In this document: positions 91 through 32,655 of the stretch, piece by piece | Numbering within the stretch: position 1 is the stretch's first letter | Layout of the letters: each line of letters begins with the position of its first letter | Assembly (NCBI GenBank): GCA_027485575.1 | Contig: JAIXQU010000115.1 | Coordinates: 1-64,000, forward strand | Direction of reading: 5' to 3' | Source of the DNA: Cytophagaceae bacterium | GTDB lineage: Bacteria > Bacteroidota > Bacteroidia > Cytophagales > Flexibacteraceae | DNA length: 64,000 bases | Position numbers and translations under genes: made by a program | Notes under the pieces: model-generated | What the model saw: the letters and a program-made list of their open reading frames with translations, nothing else | The model's database searches: none | What the model was told of the DNA's origin: nothing

Positions 91-255
91 TAATTTAACC
101 CGGAATTGCCATTAGGAAATCTACTCCGAGTCTGAATTATTTCAAATCAGAGGCTTTGCCACCTTTTCTTTTGTATACGTAGCACTTAAAAGGTGCTGAT
201 TTTTTGCACTTTAGCCTCTCGTAACGAAGTACTAACGACAAATCCCGGTTTAAGG
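91..255 (-). repeat. Degenerate intergenic repeat element, copy A (boundaries approximate)
   Basis: Arms 91-122 and 211-247 match copy B in inverse orientation (29/32 and 28/37 identical by eye). Confidence 0.65.
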
Positions 256-32523: not shown

Positions 32524-32655
32524 TTAATCCCGGATTTGTCGCTGGGACCTCGTTATGAGCAACTAACCCAGACCGCAGCGCTATGCGGGGTTAGCCGCGG
32601 AATACCGGCCTGTTGGCAGACTAGGATTTCCTAATGGAAATTCCGGGATAAATTA
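32524..32655 (+). repeat. Degenerate intergenic repeat element, copy B (boundaries approximate)
   Basis: Arms 32530-32566 and 32624-32655 match copy A; interior contains bulged hairpin CTAACC-CAGA-CCGCA-gcgcta-TGCGG-GGTTAG. Confidence 0.65.

Follow-up and report, generated by a model that had tools for sequence, protein, structure and literature searches.

A short transposase-free mobile element of Bacteroidia with IS1380-type ends and a covarying hairpin fold

The repeated element analysed here, found in a window of 64,000 nucleotides (i.e. the whole stretch of DNA studied, C81:1-64000 of the draft genome G000, 3.9 Mb in 198 contigs), is a non-autonomous DNA transposon (MITE), an identification about which we have next to no doubt. 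It is short, bounded by terminal inverted repeats and devoid of transposase; it shows a fixed 5-bp target duplication and empty sites in relatives, and it is present in several copies per genome (48 in G000 and at least 40 in G058). MITEs are usually viewed as short-lived local deletion products of one insertion sequence (IS). This single non-autonomous element keeps its length, layout and hairpin over many families of the class, with strong compensatory evolution, and comparison of the sequences makes a structural role of the folded strand probable.

Two copies, A and B, lie in the window (Table 1). They were scored with a covariance model built from other lineages and the consensus of this genome, which gave 108.9 bits (E 1.4e-24) for copy A and 30.9 bits (E 1.3e-5) for copy B; copy A was also retrieved by nhmmer (E 4.4e-32). 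An earlier note, made on the window alone, had aligned two arms of these copies at 28/37 and 29/32 positions, and a hand recount from the sequence reproduced both figures. The arm patterns match only these two places in 64 kb, 0 being expected from shuffles. The note had also described the outer ends as imperfect terminal inverted repeats, whose exact limits (CCC/GGG) lie a few bases inside those it proposed, and it had reported no transposase, none being found between the element ends. It had taken a lack of further copies as counting against its reading, a case that did not arise, and had expected many genome-wide; they are indeed many, BLAST giving 47 matches in G000 with copy B as query and 57 with copy A.

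Table 1. Features of the two element copies in the window
Feature	Position	Strand	Basis or remark
Copy A, full-length element	99..248	-	150 bp; covariance model and nhmmer
Copy A, 5-bp target duplication TTTAA, one side	94..98	.	Read from sequence; entered the 5-bp test
Copy A, 5-bp target duplication TTTAA, other side	249..253	.	Read from sequence; entered the 5-bp test
Copy A, 5' outer arm (terminal inverted repeat)	226..248	-	Helix 1 of the consensus
Copy A, 3' outer arm (terminal inverted repeat)	99..121	-	Helix 1 of the consensus
Copy A, conserved unpaired motif GTTACGA (consensus GTTATGA)	219..225	-	Loop columns 24-30; mean pairwise identity 0.79 across lineages
Copy B, internally deleted element	32529..32647	+	119 bp; covariance model
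Copy B, 5' outer arm	32529..32551	+	Arm pattern and covariance model
Copy B, 3' outer arm	32625..32647	+	Arm pattern and covariance model
Copy B, small hairpin module CTAACCC..GGGGTTAG	32563..32594	+	Alignment of copies
Copy B, left flank TTAAT, decayed target duplication	32524..32528	.	Matches right flank 3/5
Copy B, right flank ATAAA, decayed target duplication	32648..32652	.	Matches left flank 3/5

Copy A, whose flanks form an exact duplication, is 15 bp shorter than the 165-bp standard form, part of its central hairpin being missing. Copy B has lost its centre and retains the outer arms, the CTAACCC..GGGGTTAG module and part of a second small hairpin; in the alignment, this module recurs in four other copies (L006, L002, L024 and L015). 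The suggestion of a structured RNA with variable cargo was partly right: the interior is a conserved, covarying structure that may act as an RNA. As to the cargo, copies A and B differ by an internal deletion and by small exchangeable hairpins, without cargo genes. At the contig edge (positions 1-60), CCCAAATAAGCTTTGTTACGAGCTTTGGG holds a TTTGTTACGAG motif resembling the conserved loop region of the element; it was unscored by the model.

The draft genome contains at least 48 copies (48 covariance-model matches), a count which, like those above, relies on BLAST and model searches, and 33 full-length copies were present among the first loci retrieved. In the standard form, with ends CCC[AG]GATT...AATC[TC]GGG, one end reads CCC[AG]GATT.......ATTAG and the other CTAAT.......AATC[TC]GGG, and the two pair together. 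Inward of them come a second helix, a third and a fourth helix, and a small terminal hairpin, which is CGTAGCAGCGCTACG in G000 versus CATAGCACCGCTATG elsewhere. The consensus has a much better fold than its shuffles do (z -10.6 as RNA, -8.7 as DNA). Two subfamilies were distinguished in G000, where many copies also carry, in the alignment, extra small palindromes at fixed places (CCTGCCTGTCGGCAGACAGG toward the 3' side, CCCCGACAGCAAAGCTGTGCGGGG toward the 5' side). Across species, small palindromes (TCCGCCTGAGGCGGA, CCCGAGTGCTCGGG, CCTGTGCGCCGTGGCG and CCTGCCTGTCGGCAGACAGG) were seen inserted at, or replacing, the same few positions of the element; their carriers are five Algoriphagus loci (L153, L156, L158, L170 and L173) and most G000 copies, and these palindromes look like a further unit, smaller than the element and itself mobile or copied. 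Minimal forms, scarcely more than the two ends and about 65 bp long, were encountered at L078 and L088 (G058), both with TTAAA on each side, and at L124 (G259). Runs of N occur within or beside the element at three loci of Algoriphagus algorifonticola (L155, L167 and L175); repeats of this element break or gap assemblies and are thus probably undercounted.

All the full-length G000 copies examined lie between long ORFs, several of them adjoining stop codons. Where the neighbouring genes are in tandem, the plus strand of the element is antisense to them in 14/15 cases in G000 (P 0.001). As this orientation bias (14 antisense to 1 sense) was restricted to G000 and absent from the other groups, it was dropped as evidence.

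Mobility is recorded in the flanks of the copies. The direct repeat immediately outside CCC/GGG is exactly 5 bp long, mostly TTTAA or TTAAA. Exact 5-bp duplications were counted in 12/33 copies of G000 (permutation mean 5.0, P 0.0002) and in 12/18 of G058 (5.8 expected, P 0.0004), and no excess was observed at the other lengths considered (3, 4, 6 and 7 in G000; 4 and 6 in G058). In a wider set, 22/33 were exact when 9.4 were expected, a number reached by none of 5000 permutations, and these included TTGAA, TTCAA and TGGAA. Empty sites were sought by joining the flanks, with one copy of the duplication removed, and aligning them to relatives without the element: the insertion L166 of A. algorifonticola corresponds to a gap-free site in G218 (92% identity) and the insertion L163 of A. 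hitonicola to a gap-free site in G238 (88% identity). Other insertions are common to species pairs (A. limi and A. kandeliae; A. formosus and A. marincola), hence some of them are old. The earlier proposal of a non-autonomous mobile element is upheld by these duplications and empty sites, together with the lack of transposase between the ends.

That proposal had stood beside a REP/BIME-like repeat. Like REP, REPIN and BIME sequences, the element is palindromic, intergenic and repeated in many copies; it differs from them in its fixed 5-bp duplications, in its DDE-type ends, i.e. ends shared with a DDE transposon family, and in its length of 165 bp in place of palindromes of 20-40 bp. That the element belongs to the REP/REPIN type and is mobilised by a RAYT tyrosine transposase is thus unsupported and, in our judgement, extremely improbable.

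To survey candidate sources of transposase for the MITE, the IS1380 model PF13701 was run over 242 genomes of the order. At locus L229 of G191, a 440-aa IS1380 transposase (NF033539, 242 bits for a cut-off of 180; PF13701, 160 bits) is enclosed by CCCAAAATAAGCGATAGGAA and CCCGGATTAAGCATTAGAAA, and TTTAA is found on either side. A decayed IS1380 copy of G055 bears CCCAAAATTGTCATTAGG at both ends, and in G107, G197 and G044 the same end type is located 65-123 bp past the matched part of the PF13701 gene; such ends were not found at the IS1380 locus of G225. ISEcp1, a member of this family, generates 5-bp duplications (PMC2887853), and its left repeat, CCTAGATTCTACGT (PMC7864471), is close to CCCAGATTCCGCAT of the element. 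The element resembles IS1380-family IS (ISEcp1, ISPme1 and the L229 member) in end type and in the AT-rich 5-bp target duplication (PMC2887853, PMC7864471), and differs from them in having no transposase and an interior that is absent from the IS1380 loci searched. The type of ends and duplication is common to the element and to IS1380 loci of the order, among which no exact parent was found.

No PF13701 match was obtained in G000, G001, G003, G058, G002 or G004, all of them drafts, and G058, a 410-contig draft with 40 or more very similar copies, yielded no match to PF13701 or PF01609. Conversely, IS1380 is present in G191, G055 and G107, which gave no match to the element model. An intact IS1380 element and numerous copies of the MITE were in no case found together in one genome, G044 having the transposase and one copy. 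As no IS1380 transposase was found in G000, the element is an orphan there and its copies are probably immobile now; copies in the window's genus and in G058 likewise look orphaned, the absence of PF13701 being that observed in drafts. Solitary ends in G058, G000 and G001 were considered as possible autonomous copies and rejected, being short elements, contig ends within the repeat, or ends with no adjoining transposase.

The many carrier genomes without detectable IS1380 gene would suit movement by transposases of another DDE family that has similar ends and likewise duplicates 5 bp. We regard this as improbable: the PF01609 transposases of G000 and G001 were discarded as movers because their flanks lack these ends, and wherever such ends flanked a transposase, the latter was of IS1380 type. 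Mobilisation in trans by IS1380-type transposases is the best mechanism available and a likely one, the actual movement of the element by these enzymes being what we infer. In this scheme, an IS1380-family DDE transposase would recognise the ends of about 20 bp, CCC[AG]GATTNNNCATTAG, and, acting in trans, would excise the element, which would then be inserted into AT-rich 5-bp targets (TTTAA/TTAAA) with duplication of the target. After insertion, the copies of G000 drift free of structural constraint.

The whole element folds as a single long interrupted hairpin, and the helices are supported by covariation, as in structured RNAs. When 19 elements were aligned by sequence only, 36 of the 46 predicted pairs proved to change on both sides yet stay paired. 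Paired cells amount to 91.4%, shuffles giving 77.8% and sliding by 1-3 columns 32-38%, and the covariation score was reached by 0/500 shuffles, the shuffle and Wilcoxon figures overstating independence since the lineages are related. Among class-wide sequences, one of which supplied the structure, 83.8% of cells were paired versus 33-43% when slid, and 49/58 pairs change on both sides. Two internal loops are better conserved than the adjoining arm of helix 2 (identity of 0.79 for GTTATGA and 0.88 for GTAATA, versus 0.53). In a strand-neutral count over 20 lineages, G-U pairs outnumber A-C on one strand (84 versus 37), an excess that persists under a structure predicted from the opposite strand (40 versus 22), and the plus strand folds more stably than the minus strand in 19/20 lineages. 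Such a one-sided wobble bias is what a folded RNA or single strand would be expected to show; the constraint thus probably acts on a strand of this kind, for which RNA transcribed from the mobile form is the simplest candidate.

The main dull rival is that the element is an ordinary MITE whose arms stay paired solely because replication switches template from one arm to the other, a process that makes palindromes more perfect without selection. A long quasi-palindrome lends itself to such arm-to-arm copying, which gives matched changes on both sides, and the neutral decay of resident copies described below is in line with it. Correction between arms should, however, erase the unpaired loops, which are instead better conserved, and it offers no reason for a one-strand excess of G-U over A-C, seen with the fold of either strand. 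The fixed loops and the wobble bias both weaken template switching, which is rather unlikely to account for the pairing.

Within G000, the structural constraint on individual copies disappears. Private changes of the resident copies yield G-U and A-C without bias (31:31 and 61:48), and divergence is about the same at paired and at unpaired sites, i.e. the copies decay neutrally, and neither measure gave any sign of inserted G000 copies working as RNA. The same count gives 24:4 in Algoriphagus, whose copies share recent subfamily changes. Neutral decay of resident copies indicates that the constraint seems to lie on the transposing lineage and not on copies after insertion. On the same ground, the copies were rejected as RNA genes of the host. 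A structured RNA gene in use by the hosts (regulatory or small RNA) and mobile by chance would agree with the class-wide conservation and covariation, the plus-strand wobble bias and the more stable plus-strand fold; we nevertheless consider it unlikely, given neutrally decaying copies placed as typical insertions and a patchy distribution, the sister genera of the window's family (G005-G010) being without the element according to the first covariance model.

That first model detected the element in the window's genus, in 11/29 tested Algoriphagus-family genomes and in three of family f20; by covariance models, the element spans three families of the order. With the 19-element model, it was found in 24/395 genomes of the class; 21 carriers lie outside the order and represent 13 families, of which 11 had E below 1e-9. 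An exact interior 22-mer matched, among named genomes, only Algoriphagus. A plasmid of Microscilla sp. PRE1, pSD15, also carries the element (114.7 bits), with ATAAT flanks on both sides. No exact match to the core pattern was detected in viral contigs and no BLAST match in phages. At the gathering score, Rfam 15 gave no match in the window or in nine out-of-order loci, and a relaxed Rfam search of nine in-order loci returned chance-level matches only. No description of the element in Bacteroidetes or Cytophagales was found in the open-access literature.

Among described elements, QMITE2 of Coxiella (PMC5896051) and MITECca01 of Cardinium (PMC9769881) are likewise short, non-autonomous, intergenic and present in tens of copies, with terminal inverted repeats and a foldable transcript. 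Each was described in one species or strain (PMC5896051, PMC9769881), whereas the present element keeps its interior layout and length over many families of the class, with compensatory changes in its stems. MITECca01, considered as the same element, is a different one, derived from IS982. With Rfam structured RNAs, the element shares covarying helices and conserved unpaired motifs; unlike them, it is mobile and has target duplications. We propose tentatively, and with more doubt than confidence, that it may be an ancient mobile structured RNA of Bacteroidia, with a 165-nt fold and fixed internal loops required for the spread or tolerance of the transposon, long carried between families on borrowed IS1380-type transposases. 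If the constraint is real, DNA transposition of a gene-less parasite would depend on, or be tolerated through, a folded strand. Caution is also warranted in RNA discovery, as mobile hairpins of this kind can pass covariation tests for functional RNA.

Two other mobile sequences were noticed in these genomes. At locus L181 (G000:C179), a PF01609 transposase is accompanied by 18-bp inverted repeats (ATTTTCCCGACTTGTACC) that lie 1.6 kb from each other, apparently an intact IS of another family. In G001, loci L213-L225 and L138 correspond to a second MITE with the same ends (CCCAGATTCCGCATTAGG) and a different palindromic interior of about 100-215 bp, present in about a dozen copies.
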